This document shows positions 53,494 to 58,248 of a stretch of 64,000 bases of DNA, piece after piece. The notes beneath the pieces are model-generated. The model saw nothing but the letters and a program-made list of their open reading frames with translations. It was not told the DNA's origin and ran no database searches. The translations under genes and the position numbers were made by a program. The first letter of the stretch is position 1, and each line of letters starts with the position of its first letter. Source of the DNA: Desulfosporosinus sp. FKB (GTDB lineage: Bacteria; Bacillota; Desulfitobacteriia; Desulfitobacteriales; Desulfitobacteriaceae); assembly GCF_002196705.1 (NCBI RefSeq), contig NZ_NADJ01000027.1, positions 1 to 64,000 on the forward strand, given 5' to 3'.

Positions 53494-54483
53494 CTAAATG
53501 TCAAGTGTTGGACGTTGTGACAAGCAATCGATACACATTGGCGGCTCCAAGTTATCAAATACTCGCTTGCCGCACTGAGAGCAAAACCGTCGCTTTCCTT
53601 GGTATAAAAGAACTTTGCCGGTCAGCAAACGATAGGTCAACGATTTAACTTCTATACTTAAAGCTTTAGAGCGACATATACTGATACATCGCTGACAGAG
53701 GACGCATTTTAAGGGTTCATAAATCAAGGATAATTGCTCTTCATCTTCCCTTTTCGTTAAAGCCTCTTGCGGACAAATCGTTGGACACTCACCGCAATCT
53801 GTACAATTTTCACTCACATTTAAGACAGGCAGCGGGAGCGCTTTAACCTCAGATTGACGGGATTTCCAGGTTTCGCTCAAGAGCTGCCGTGTCTTAGGTA
53901 TATGATACATTTCTTCGGAATCAGCCTTCGCAAAGATTGCTTCGAATTTCTGACGTTGAGATAAGACCGTTTCCCCGAGTTCAGAGTCCCTGTTGCCATC
54001 ATCAGGCGCGACTTTAATCCCTATTGGAGGATGACCTTTCCAGGCATTATGCACTTCTTTGAACGTTTCTACGCTTATTCTACAGGCGTTTTTATCAGGA
54101 CAATCTGCACACACACCGGTAAAGATCTTCACTTCCTTCTCCCGGGCATACAGCATCAGAGCCAGCCATAAATCCCGATCGATAATTCCCAGACAAGGAA
54201 TTTCCTGACCTGCTGGAATTGCTTGCGGACAGTTCAAAATAACTTTCCCGGAAGCTCGAATATATTCATGAAGCTGATCAGAACTGCGGAGAACAAACCC
54301 ATCACTTGGACAAACGGCCATACAAATCCCACACTCTGTGCAGCGTTTGGCGTCGAGTTCAAAATATAAAGAAATGGCTTGATGGGGACAAGAGTCAATA
54401 CATAAACGGCAAATATTATCCGATGCTTTTTTACCATTGAGACAATTATTGTGATTAAATACGATTTGACAATTATAAAACAT
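53494..54483 (-). CDS. multi-cluster ferredoxin-type protein
   Basis: A 329-residue soluble polyferredoxin. CRLCIDSCPHQAI and CTECGICMAVCP occur in the first 65 residues, CADCPDKNACR near 130, CTDCGECPTICP and CVLCQRCISICRS near 230-270. A rubredoxin-like CSQCG...CIDC pair lies at the C-terminus. It could carry four [4Fe-4S] clusters and one zinc or iron. GAGGTG precedes the ATG. It lies downstream of the hydrogenase operon on the same strand but behind a hairpin, so it may be separately expressed or a read-through partner. Confidence 0.85.
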   Translation of the reverse strand: MFYNCQIVFNHNNCLNGKKASDNICRLCIDSCPHQAISLYFELDAKRCTECGICMAVCPSDGFVLRSSDQLHEYIRASGKVILNCPQAIPAGQEIPCLGIIDRDLWLALMLYAREKEVKIFTGVCADCPDKNACRISVETFKEVHNAWKGHPPIGIKVAPDDGNRDSELGETVLSQRQKFEAIFAKADSEEMYHIPKTRQLLSETWKSRQSEVKALPLPVLNVSENCTDCGECPTICPQEALTKREDEEQLSLIYEPLKCVLCQRCISICRSKALSIEVKSLTYRLLTGKVLLYQGKRRFCSQCGKRVFDNLEPPMCIDCLSQRPTLDI

Positions 54484-54516
54484 TAAAGCACCTCTTCTGT
54501 GCAACCCATGTTTACA

Positions 54517-54551
54517 TTAAATTAGGGGTTGTTCAGCAACCCCTAATTTAA
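54517..54551 (-). terminator. hairpin between hydrogenase operon and polyferredoxin gene
   Basis: TTAAATTAGGGGTTG and CAACCCCTAATTTAA form a perfect 15-bp stem with a 5-base loop 66 bases after the membrane-subunit stop. Confidence 0.8.
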
Positions 54552-54617
54552 CTCATCTTAAAATAAGTCAAACACCCGTACCATCTTTAGTTTGTATTTG
54601 ACTAAGACTCATAACGC

Positions 54618-55841
54618 TTATTTTGCAGTGACAGCGTAATCGCCATTTTCAGTCGTTGTACCTTCAACGGCTTCTGTTCCTCGATGTTCAATAATATTGA
54701 AGTTTTCAACGATGAACAGATATGCTAAACAAGCTATGGAAACCAATCCCAGGCTGACAATAAACTCTGTCCAAGCAGGGAAATAATGACCGCCGTATTG
54801 GTTCAGATATTTTCCCATGCCTGTGAACACAACATCAAACCTGTTCAAGATTACTCCTGCTACATCCAGTACTCCAAACCACAGTAAACCTTTCCGCGTA
54901 CCGGATAAGGAACTGAAAGCTATGATTATGGGGATGATTACACCAAAGAGCAGCTCGCTGAGGAACAAAATACTCGGCAAATCAAAAGCAAAAGCATTGG
55001 CAAAGGTTCCTTTAACGGCCATATCCACGATCTTTAAGATTAAATACAAGATCATTGCTCCGCCGGAAATTCTGACCAGCCCTCTTAGAACAGGGATTTC
55101 AACTTTATGATTAAATGCCTTCCCCGCCAGACTGCTTTCAACAATGATCATGCCTGCTCCGACAAAAAACGAGGACAACAGGAAGAACGGCGGCAGAAAG
55201 ACCGACCACCAGAGCGGATTCTCTTTACCAACCATTATGTAAAACAGTTCGCCCAGGGATGATTGGTGTAATGTCGGCAGGGTAATACCAACAATCAGCA
55301 ATACAGGCATTGCTTTCTTGAGGTATTTGTGTAAGCCTCTAAAAACTTTCTCTGTTGCTACTTCACAGAATTCTAAGATCTGAATCACCGTATAACAAGA
55401 AACGCACCAGAAAACTTCAAACAAGACACTGGTATGTCCCCATGATACATAAGGTCTCCAGAAGTTGAACCACTGTCCTACTTCAATTAACAATCCAAGT
55501 ACGACGACAATATAACCTAATAATGAGGTCAACATGGTACTTCTCGCTATTGAATAAAACTTATCCCGGCGTAAAACGTAGATTATAAGGCATGTTCCAT
55601 ATCCGCCGCCTGCCAGAGCTACCCCTAACAGTACGTCAAAAGCAATCCACAGCCCCCAGGGCCATTGGTCATTCAGATTGGTTGCAGCTCCTAGGCCGAA
55701 GATAAAACGCACCAGGATTACTGCTATGGCCGCGACCGCTATGGCCATAAACACTAATCGCATGGGGGTTAATCTAAATCGCCATCTGAGACTGTGATGT
55801 TTTTTTCCTGCTTCTTTTTCGAATGTGGTAATAATATCCAT
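54618..55841 (-). CDS. NrfD/HybB-type integral membrane subunit of the hydrogenase
   Basis: A 407-residue quinone-reactive membrane protein of the NrfD/PsrC family with nine to ten helices (FDVLLGVALAGGGYGTCLI near residue 65; VFWCVSCYT near 145). It accepts electrons from the HybA-like ferredoxin and reduces menaquinone, or runs in reverse. GGAGGGGAAATC decides the start MDIITTF. It lies 33 bases after the ferredoxin gene as third gene of the operon. Confidence 0.9.
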   Translation of the reverse strand: MDIITTFEKEAGKKHHSLRWRFRLTPMRLVFMAIAVAAIAVILVRFIFGLGAATNLNDQWPWGLWIAFDVLLGVALAGGGYGTCLIIYVLRRDKFYSIARSTMLTSLLGYIVVVLGLLIEVGQWFNFWRPYVSWGHTSVLFEVFWCVSCYTVIQILEFCEVATEKVFRGLHKYLKKAMPVLLIVGITLPTLHQSSLGELFYIMVGKENPLWWSVFLPPFFLLSSFFVGAGMIIVESSLAGKAFNHKVEIPVLRGLVRISGGAMILYLILKIVDMAVKGTFANAFAFDLPSILFLSELLFGVIIPIIIAFSSLSGTRKGLLWFGVLDVAGVILNRFDVVFTGMGKYLNQYGGHYFPAWTEFIVSLGLVSIACLAYLFIVENFNIIEHRGTEAVEGTTTENGDYAVTAK

Positions 55842-55874
55842 GATTTCCCCTCCATTCATTTGTAATTTCTGAAA

Positions 55875-56651
55875 TTACTCCAAAGGTTCCTTATTTTTGT
55901 TGTTATAAATATATAAGCCTGCTAACACAGCTGCCCAAGTACCCCCTATAAATGGTGTAAGTTTCATATATCCCTCCGTGTAAGAAGGCAGCGACTTGGT
56001 GGTTACATCCGTCCTGAATCTCAAATCTTCAAACGGTACATCTGAAATATATAACCAGGATGTTCCCCCTGCTTCTTTTTCGCCAAAAACTCGGTTAACA
56101 TAACCATTATCTTTGATTCTCTTTTTAGCTTCGGCCAACAATTGGTCCCTGTCCCCAAATGTAATAGCTCCTGTCGGGCAAACTGAAGTACATGCTGTTT
56201 CCTGGTTATTGGTAACTCTTGACGGGCACATCTGGCATTTGCTTACTCCGGGAATGGCTTTTTTCCATTCGTATCTCAATATGTCAAATGGGCAGGCCAT
56301 CATGCAATAACGGCAGCCTACGCACAGCTTCTGATCATAAACAACCGGTCCCTCGGGAAGCTTCTTTAATGCTTTAGAGAAACATGCTGAGACACAGGCA
56401 GGATCTTCACAATGAAAACATTGAGTTTTAACGTATCTTCCCACAGACGAGCCGTTTTTCTTGACATCATAACGATTTATTGAGGTCCATTCATCCGGCC
56501 ACAAGCCTTTGTTGGGTTCCTTAGCTCTATCTTCAGCAGTTTTGTTCTTTTCCTGCGAATCCCAAGGGAGTTCATTCCATAATTTGCAGGCTACCGAACA
56601 GCTTTCACAACCGATACATTTTGGTATATCTACGAGTATTCCTTTTGACAT
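55875..56651 (-). CDS. HybA-like four-cluster ferredoxin subunit of the hydrogenase
   Basis: A 258-residue protein with sixteen cysteines in four groups: CIGCESCSVAC, CFHCEDPACVSAC, CVGCRYCMMACP and CQMCPSRV...ACTSVCP. This is the DMSO-reductase/HybA electron-transfer type. A C-terminal membrane helix (AAVLAGLYIY) anchors it. There is no export signal of its own, so it may be co-exported with the Tat-bearing catalytic subunit. GGAGGTG precedes the ATG; 13 bases separate it from the catalytic gene. Confidence 0.92.
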   Translation of the reverse strand: MSKGILVDIPKCIGCESCSVACKLWNELPWDSQEKNKTAEDRAKEPNKGLWPDEWTSINRYDVKKNGSSVGRYVKTQCFHCEDPACVSACFSKALKKLPEGPVVYDQKLCVGCRYCMMACPFDILRYEWKKAIPGVSKCQMCPSRVTNNQETACTSVCPTGAITFGDRDQLLAEAKKRIKDNGYVNRVFGEKEAGGTSWLYISDVPFEDLRFRTDVTTKSLPSYTEGYMKLTPFIGGTWAAVLAGLYIYNNKNKEPLE

Positions 56652-56664
56652 TTTCTTTCACCTC

Positions 56665-58236
56665 CTACATATTGTCTGATTTTTTAGCAATAAACTCTGA
56701 AGCCCGGGAAATATAAGTAGTATGCAGTAGTTCTTCTGCTTTTTCACTCATCGGAGCGGTTAAGAAATCTGCATAGACTTCCTTGATTTGAGGATTATCG
56801 TAACTGTTGCGAAGTGTTGCCTTAGCATCAATTTGATATAACGAGGCAGCACGTCGATTGCGGACTTCATCTGAAGGGGGAGCAGCTGCCCGGGGTTGTC
56901 CGCCGCCATACTCACAGCCTCCGGGACAAGCCATCACTTCAATGAAATCCCACGGAGCATTACCGCCTTTAATTTGATCCATAACCGTTCTGGCATTAGC
57001 CAAACCGGAAATAACAGCAACTCTCATATTGCCAATCCCAGGAATATTAACTGTCGCATCTTTTACACCCTGCATTCCTCTCACAGGTGTTAGATCCCAA
57101 AGTGCTGAAGGCGGCTGTTGCCCGGTCACAAGATAATAAGCAGAACGAGCTGCAGCTTCCATGACACCGCCGGTGGTACCAAAGATTACTCCTGCCCCTG
57201 TGCCGGTACCCATCAACTGATCATACTGATCATCAGGCAGAGAAGCAAAATCAATCCCGGATCTCTTGATCATTCTGGCAAGTTCTCTGGTTGTCAGAAC
57301 GACATCCACATCTGGTGTAACTTTATTATCCTTTAATTCTTTTTGCGCCGAAACCATTTCAGGACGCTGACATTCAAATTTCTTGGCTGTACAAGGCATG
57401 ATGGCTACTGAAAAGATCTTTTTGGGATCTACATTCTTCTTTTCAGCATAATAGGTTTTCATAAGAGTTCCTTCCATCTGCTGAGGAGACTTCGCTGATG
57501 ATAAATTAGGGATAAGTTCAGGATAAAAATATTCGACAAACTTAACCCAACCTGGACAACATGAAGTGAGTTGAGGGAGAGGCTTTTTCAAATCGCCTTT
57601 AACCCGTTTAAGAAGTTCTGTTCCTTCTTCCATAATTGTCAGGTCAGCAGTGAAGTTCGTATCAAATATTACGTCAAAACCTAATTTTCTTAAGGCTGCA
57701 ACTTGTTTGCCCTGAACATTCGTTCCGACAGGCAGACCAAATTCTTCACCAAGACCAATACGTGTTGCGGGCGCAGTCTGAACTACAACTGTGACATTTG
57801 GATCGGCAATAGCTTTAAAGACTTTATCCGTTTCATCCCGTTCAGAAATTGCCCCGGAAGGACACCATTGGGTACACTGTCCGCAATTTACACAAACAAA
57901 TTCATTTTTAATTGGCAGTTCATAATTTCCAAACACAGATTGAACTTTCTCACATACTTCAATACATTGACCACAAAGAATACACTTTTGGTCATCTCTG
58001 ACAATTGAAGGATTCAGCGGATCAATAGGAACCCGGCCGCGAACATTGGTTGGCCAGCTGCCTGGCGCATTGTATTGAGCCGGCATCCAACCTTTTCCAC
58101 CGGCAGCACTATCAGCTGTTGCCACTTCGCCGCATCCCGCCAAACTTAACGAGACACCGGTTAAACTTGCTCCTCCAACAATTTTAAGAAAAGAACGTCT
58201 GGACAATTTTTTTACTTGCCCTGCTTTGCTTGCCAT
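56665..58236 (-). CDS. Tat-exported, probably lipid-anchored [FeFe] hydrogenase
   Basis: A 523-residue [FeFe] hydrogenase that oxidises or makes H2. A twin-arginine signal (RRSFLK, Arg13-14) is followed by a lipobox-like LAGC with Cys34. Two [4Fe-4S] motifs follow (Cys85-88-91-95 and 115-118-121-125), and the H-cluster motifs are complete: TSCCPGW (224-230), MPCTAKKFE (280-288) and MACPGGCEYGGGQ (435-447). The [2Fe-2S] and His-ligated N-terminal clusters of clostridial HydA are absent. With the HybA- and NrfD-like subunits it forms a respiratory complex on the outer membrane face. GGTGG lies 8 bases before the ATG chosen. Confidence 0.94.
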   Translation of the reverse strand: MASKAGQVKKLSRRSFLKIVGGASLTGVSLSLAGCGEVATADSAAGGKGWMPAQYNAPGSWPTNVRGRVPIDPLNPSIVRDDQKCILCGQCIEVCEKVQSVFGNYELPIKNEFVCVNCGQCTQWCPSGAISERDETDKVFKAIADPNVTVVVQTAPATRIGLGEEFGLPVGTNVQGKQVAALRKLGFDVIFDTNFTADLTIMEEGTELLKRVKGDLKKPLPQLTSCCPGWVKFVEYFYPELIPNLSSAKSPQQMEGTLMKTYYAEKKNVDPKKIFSVAIMPCTAKKFECQRPEMVSAQKELKDNKVTPDVDVVLTTRELARMIKRSGIDFASLPDDQYDQLMGTGTGAGVIFGTTGGVMEAAARSAYYLVTGQQPPSALWDLTPVRGMQGVKDATVNIPGIGNMRVAVISGLANARTVMDQIKGGNAPWDFIEVMACPGGCEYGGGQPRAAAPPSDEVRNRRAASLYQIDAKATLRNSYDNPQIKEVYADFLTAPMSEKAEELLHTTYISRASEFIAKKSDNM

Positions 58237-58248
58237 GTGTTTTACCAC

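Follow-up and report, generated by a model that had tools for sequence, protein, structure and literature searches.

A probable H2:menaquinone oxidoreductase with a putatively Tat-exported and lipid-anchored [FeFe] hydrogenase subunit encoded in Desulfosporosinus sp. FKB

The window analyzed here is a whole stretch of 64,000 nucleotides (positions 1 to 64,000 of contig NZ_NADJ01000027.1) from Desulfosporosinus sp. FKB. An operon of three tightly spaced, co-directed genes was found on its minus strand (58236–56665, 56651–55875 and 55859/55841–54618), encoding the catalytic subunit of an [FeFe] hydrogenase (HydA), an iron–sulfur (FeS) subunit and a HybB/HmcC-like membrane subunit. The first-pass annotation of this DNA, which described an exported, lipobox-bearing hydrogenase with HybA- and NrfD-like partners, had placed the operon correctly. 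The features of the operon are as follows.

56665..58236, minus strand: HydA, group A [FeFe] hydrogenase catalytic subunit of 523 residues with a fused small-subunit domain (Fe_hyd_lg_C and Fe_hyd_SSU, TIGR02512)
58135..58236, minus strand: twin-arginine translocation (Tat) signal peptide of HydA, residues 1–34 (MASKAGQVKKLSRRSFLKIVGGASLTGVSLSLAG), R13, R14 and F16 being invariant in 43 relatives
58132..58143, minus strand: lipobox LAGC, residues 32–35, with Cys35 as the first residue after predicted cleavage by signal peptidase II
57862..57984, minus strand: two [4Fe-4S] (F-cluster) motifs, CILCGQCIEVC and CVNCGQCTQWC, residues 85–125
57547..57567, minus strand: H-cluster motif TSCCPGW, residues 224–230
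57373..57399, minus strand: H-cluster motif MPCTAKKFE, residues 280–288
56893..56940, minus strand: H-cluster motif EVMACPGGCEYGGGQP, residues 433–448
56704..56871, minus strand: fused small-subunit (HydB-like) domain of HydA (PF02256, E-value 2.5e-21)
55875..56651, minus strand: HmcB/HybA-like iron–sulfur subunit of 258 residues, with four [4Fe-4S] sites and without a signal peptide
55908..55958, minus strand: hydrophobic helix at the C-terminus of the FeS subunit (C-tail), about residues 232–248
54618..55859, minus strand: HybB/HmcC-type (NrfD family) membrane subunit, start ATG at 55841 or 55859 (PF03916)

HydA passed the TIGR02512 model for group A [FeFe] hydrogenases (497.7 bits against a cut-off of 405.95) and matched Fe_hyd_lg_C in Pfam with an E-value of 5.7e-96. 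All three H-cluster motifs agree with the group A consensus (TSCCPxW, MPCxxKxxE and ExMxCPGGCxxGGGQP), and both F-cluster motifs are intact. The likely start is the ATG at 58236, with AAAGGTGGT upstream, which gives the 523 residues; a GTG at 58248 was rejected because the ribosome site is better placed for the ATG. The nearest named relative is Desulfosporosinus acididurans M1, with a HydA of 94% identity. Among solved structures, the periplasmic enzyme of Desulfovibrio desulfuricans and the HydA1 subunits of bifurcating hydrogenases are the nearest by sequence, the top match being 8ryh, an engineered fusion of Desulfovibrio HydAB. The AlphaFold2 model of HydA had a predicted template modelling score of 0.81, and its best fold matches were 8a6t and D. 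desulfuricans HydAB.

For comparison, relatives were gathered from family, order, class and phylum searches and from named genomes, which gave 55 distinct full-length sequences from about 16 families of the phylum and one metagenome-assembled genome (MAG) of Proteobacteria. The N-terminus of HydA reads MASKAGQVKKLSRRSFLKIVGGASLTGVSLSLAGC and contains LSRRSFLK...LSLAGC. The proposed twin-arginine signal is thus present, and an RR motif was found in all relatives with a complete N-terminus. The proposed LAGC lipobox also stands, with its Cys kept in 54 of the 55 orthologs; this count includes L119, L113 and the truncated L097, which were placed by eye instead of by the pattern script. Only the number of the lipid cysteine, given as Cys34, was off by one: with the start at 58236 the residue is Cys35. 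In an alignment of 43 relatives (A2), C35 was the sole invariant column between F16 and P52 while residues 36–45 were very variable, and the lipobox Cys is therefore more than a chance feature. Conservation across the 55 orthologs speaks for a function of both the lipobox and the set of three genes.

Inspection of the FeS subunit encoded in the window revealed neither an RR motif nor a signal peptide, and a hydrophobic helix lies at its C-terminus, just as had been noted for the HybA-like ferredoxin in the first annotation. A signal-less, C-tailed FeS partner is the rule among the orthologs: nearly all have the hydrophobic C-tail, often followed by basic residues. All 16 cluster cysteines were kept in 51 of 51 FeS subunits. 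The best match to the FeS subunit in the PDB sequence search was FdnH of Escherichia coli (1kqf_B), and the HmcB model matched it below the cut-off.

The top NCBIfam models for the membrane subunit were HybB (266.7 bits) and HmcC (237.8 bits), both under their equivalog cut-offs, and the two models were matched by all 39 members examined. Its structural model contains ten long predicted transmembrane helices. A PDB sequence search with this subunit gave no match, whereas the fold search did find relatives, namely ActC of alternative complex III (ACIII) and menaquinone-bound PsrC. Its earlier description as a quinone-reactive subunit of NrfD type holds at the level of the family (PF03916) but is too broad, since the protein is specifically HybB/HmcC-like with ten transmembrane helices.

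HybA from the E. coli K-12 genome was compared by alignment with 51 FeS subunits, and HybB with 46 membrane subunits. The 16 cluster cysteines all aligned to cysteines of HybA. R89, Y99, E148 and H184 of HybB correspond to R100, Y110, E157 and H192 here and were kept in 45–46 of the 46 sequences; the quinone-site residues D58, S129 and E133 were kept in 44–46. In E. coli, H2 is oxidized less well when Arg89, Tyr99, Glu148 or His184 of HybB is replaced (cited in PMC8076601). Since the HybA cysteines and the proton-path and quinone-site residues of HybB are conserved, an electron path to menaquinone like that of hydrogenase-2, possibly with proton coupling, is supported.

Taken together, the operon likely encodes an H2:menaquinone oxidoreductase similar to E. 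coli hydrogenase-2 but built on an [FeFe] core, with a Tat-exported, lipid-anchored HydA and a co-exported FeS partner. Judged from sequence, the overall interpretation of the first-pass annotation is supported. We suggest the following order of events. The Fe-S clusters and, by means of HydE/F/G encoded elsewhere in the genome, the H-cluster would be inserted into HydA in the cytoplasm. HydA would then bind the FeS subunit, which has no signal of its own, and the two would cross the membrane together, already folded, by way of the Tat system and the HydA signal, for which E. coli formate dehydrogenase-N offers a precedent. Signal peptidase II is predicted to cut the signal, leaving a lipidated Cys35, and the C-tail of the FeS subunit would insert into the membrane with its C-terminus inside. 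On the outer face, H2 would give its electrons to HydA, where they would run along the two F-clusters and then along the four clusters of the FeS partner, until they reach the quinone site in the HybB-like protein. Conserved polar residues of the latter may link the reduction of quinone to a movement of protons. Reverse operation driven by the proton motive force would also be possible.

Two published topologies, one aberrant lipobox, expression data and solitary relatives of HydA weigh against this interpretation. In the description of the Desulfotomaculum ruminis homologues, an uncleaved anchor was predicted with SignalP (PMC3569383): the Tat signal would stay on as an N-terminal transmembrane helix holding HydA without lipidation. 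However, both copies in the genome that we take to be D. ruminis (G278) show a clear lipobox, TIAGCS in one and TITGCS in the other, and an uncleaved anchor would not need the Cys that the orthologs keep despite free variation after it. SignalP 4.0, the tool behind that claim, does separate signal peptides from transmembrane regions; to our knowledge, it has no class for lipoproteins. An uncleaved anchor is thus very improbable. The only ortholog with another residue in place of the lipobox Cys is L049 (locus L060/L049; Peptococcaceae MAG AS27yjCOA_185), which has Trp (LVGW). The change could be of a single base, and could reflect an assembly error or a real loss of lipidation.

As for the other topology, the surfaceome study of Desulfotomaculum reducens, in its account of this enzyme, placed the catalytic subunit Dred_0463 in the cytoplasm on the ground that it has no transmembrane helix (PMC4137172). 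With HydA in the cytoplasm, the complex would face inward and feed or drain a cytosolic carrier. The near-invariant RR motif and lipobox conflict with such an arrangement, as do the basic residues behind the C-tail in many orthologs, which place that end inside and hence the clusters of the FeS subunit outside. In the same study, the FeS subunit was itself among the proteins obtained from the cell surface (PMC4137172). Judging from the relatives of Dred_0463, a cytoplasmic catalytic subunit in D. reducens is hard to keep, and for the operon in the window we consider this arrangement scarcely credible.

The direction of the reaction must also be considered. According to the proteomic data reported for D. 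reducens, the orthologous proteins peak in sulfate reduction, and pyruvate fermentation gives higher levels than Fe(III) reduction (PMC4759654, PMC4137172). This pattern leaves the direction unsettled and would suit a complex working mainly in reverse, that is, making H2 from menaquinol and the proton motive force, as might happen when cells grow in syntrophy or cycle H2. The conserved proton-path residues of the HybB-like subunit are also what a reversal of this kind would need. On the other hand, the potential of menaquinone lies well above that of the H+/H2 couple, a gap that strongly favors uptake. In addition, E. coli hydrogenase-2, the source of the best-scoring membrane model, is described as an H2:quinone oxidoreductase (PMC8076601). 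Mainly reverse operation is therefore unlikely, and uptake of H2 remains our preferred direction.

The gene order HydA–FeS–HybB was found in 50 of the 55 loci, and in almost every locus the gene after HydA is that of the FeS subunit. The exceptions are L122, L123 and L113 without partner genes, L111, in which no HybB-like gene was found, and L107 (5159–7768, G371), where a transposase-like gene on the opposite strand breaks up the FeS gene, with HydA and the HybB-like gene on either side. The hydrogenases of L122 (3404–4963), L123 (4463–6046) and L113 (5003–6556) are solitary: they have a Tat signal and a lipobox-like Cys with no FeS or HybB-like partner nearby, and these are the solitary relatives mentioned above. 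One could propose that lipidation is an essential working part of HydA, an anchor of its own that is independent of the FeS C-tail and allows it to swap between the HybB branch and other acceptors on the outer face, with the three solitary proteins as the free-standing form; we regard this as improbable. Two further solitary Tat-type [FeFe] hydrogenases, without lipobox or partners, lie in or next to the same clade (L116:3399–4973 and L130:4794–6332) and are possibly released or cell-wall-held forms.

Within the genus, the operon was present in about 17 of 29 genomes (in one case split over two contigs), and about 7% of the phylum sample had it. In the phylogenetic tree, the Tat group formed one clade, including a few divergent relatives, with unsure deep branches; because of long branches, its position relative to Desulfovibrio HydA is unreliable. 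One locus (L108:3846–11422, G068) carries tandem copies of the operon, in which the FeS genes are identical at 810 of 810 bases and the HybB-like genes at 1189 of 1191, while the two HydA genes differ clearly from each other (76% and 57% identity to HydA of the window). This suggests a recent duplication or gene conversion of the partner genes only. A whole operon was also found in the MAG labelled Proteobacteria (JAKJFA010000017; L050:4863–8480), with a HydA 59% identical to that of the window and with neighboring genes resembling a MacA/MacB-type efflux system and a BepA-like protease. Since this sequence falls inside the Firmicutes clade, a transfer is suggested; no second carrier was found among the 398 genomes searched in the phylum of that MAG.

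The genome of the strain FKB contains six [FeFe] hydrogenase-like genes in total. A bifurcating NAD-linked enzyme was rejected for the operon, as no flavin or NAD subunit lies beside HydA and paralogs of that type are encoded elsewhere in the genome. For the maturases, the HydG and HydF models were run; both genes scored over the cut-off and share one contig (C33), separate from that of the operon. A radical S-adenosylmethionine gene adjoins HydF there, and the HydE/F/G maturases are taken to be available in the genome. TatC, two LspA and one PF02621 (MqnA/D family) gene are present as well.

The operon is flanked by a polyferredoxin-like and an aldo/keto reductase-like open reading frame. The former (53494–54504), directly downstream, encodes a cytoplasmic-looking polyferredoxin of about 330 residues. 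It was rejected for now as a fourth subunit, because its occurrence behind the operon is confined to Desulfosporosinus and one related genus of the family, and because a perfect hairpin separates it from the operon:

54517–54552: perfect, AT-flanked hairpin with arms AAATTAGGGGTTG and CAACCCCTAATTT and loop TTCAG, about -21 kcal/mol

A terminator function is probable for the hairpin, although no separate run of T is present. A promoter and terminator scan gave a result no better than shuffled sequences.

It should be noted that this interpretation is not new, because the same module was predicted in 2024 (PMC10924467); the finding of the first-pass annotation is a correct independent rediscovery. 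With the module already described, the gain lies in breadth and consistency, not in discovery: the spread over many families, the near-invariant lipobox, the conserved proton-path residues of HybB and the solitary Tat-type forms are added here. The lipobox provides sequence-level evidence against the two published topologies, the uncleaved anchor of D. ruminis and the cytoplasmic subunit of D. reducens. With this module, many Gram-positive sulfate reducers and their relatives would have an outward-facing [FeFe] enzyme that likely serves respiration from H2 to menaquinone, so that scavenging or cycling of H2 in these bacteria need not rely on [NiFe] enzymes. The family may also serve as a natural test system for Tat export of a finished H-cluster.

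Among known systems, the closest is the module of Gallego-Parrilla et al. (2024; PMC10924467, Fig. 4), drawn for Desulfotruncus, Desulforamulus and Proteus as a Tat-lipoprotein group A Fe-Fe hydrogenase, a C-tail FeS protein and a HybB-like quinol oxidoreductase. It shares with our operon the three genes, the Tat signal with a signal peptidase II site on the hydrogenase, the signal-less C-tailed FeS protein and the HybB-like subunit, and the lipid anchor and the hitchhiking of the FeS partner are put forward there as a prediction. The only difference between the modules is the host, the term Desulfosporosinus being absent from the main text of that paper; in the FKB genome, HydG and HydF lie on another contig and not beside the operon.

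Tat-type membrane [FeFe] hydrogenases have been listed in genome papers since 2012. The relevant sections for Desulfotomaculum describe membrane-associated trimeric enzymes (Desgi_0926-0928, Desru_3431-3433, Desru_0447-0445 and Dred_0461-0463; PMC4148979, PMC3569383, PMC4137172), with a Tat signal on the catalytic subunit in D. gibsoniae (PMC4148979) and D. ruminis (PMC3569383). For D. reducens they report an FeS protein with one C-terminal transmembrane helix and a subunit with ten (PMC4137172), and detection of the three-subunit enzyme by proteomics (PMC4137172, PMC4759654). In contrast to our reading, these sections take the anchor to be an uncleaved signal helix or the catalytic subunit to be cytoplasmic, and mention no lipobox.

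E. coli hydrogenase-2 (HybO-HybC-HybA-HybB) has the same HybA/HybB-type partners and the same proton-path and quinone-site residues, but its core is the [NiFe] HybC/HybO instead of a single-chain [FeFe] protein, and HybA has its own Tat signal whereas the FeS protein here has none. In this last respect the operon resembles E. coli formate dehydrogenase-N (FdnGHI), which, as outlined in PMC10924467, combines a Tat signal on the catalytic subunit with a signal-less C-tail FeS subunit. FdnGHI differs in being a molybdenum formate dehydrogenase with a cytochrome b gamma subunit. We know of no lipobox in FdnG. Finally, the first-pass annotation contrasted the exported HydA with soluble clostridial HydA; this contrast leaves out of account that exported [FeFe] hydrogenases are already known, among them the periplasmic HydAB of Desulfovibrio. 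The latter has the same two F-clusters, H-cluster and small-subunit domain and differs from our operon in having no dedicated quinone subunit; in nature it consists of two chains, is soluble in the periplasm and uses cytochrome c3.

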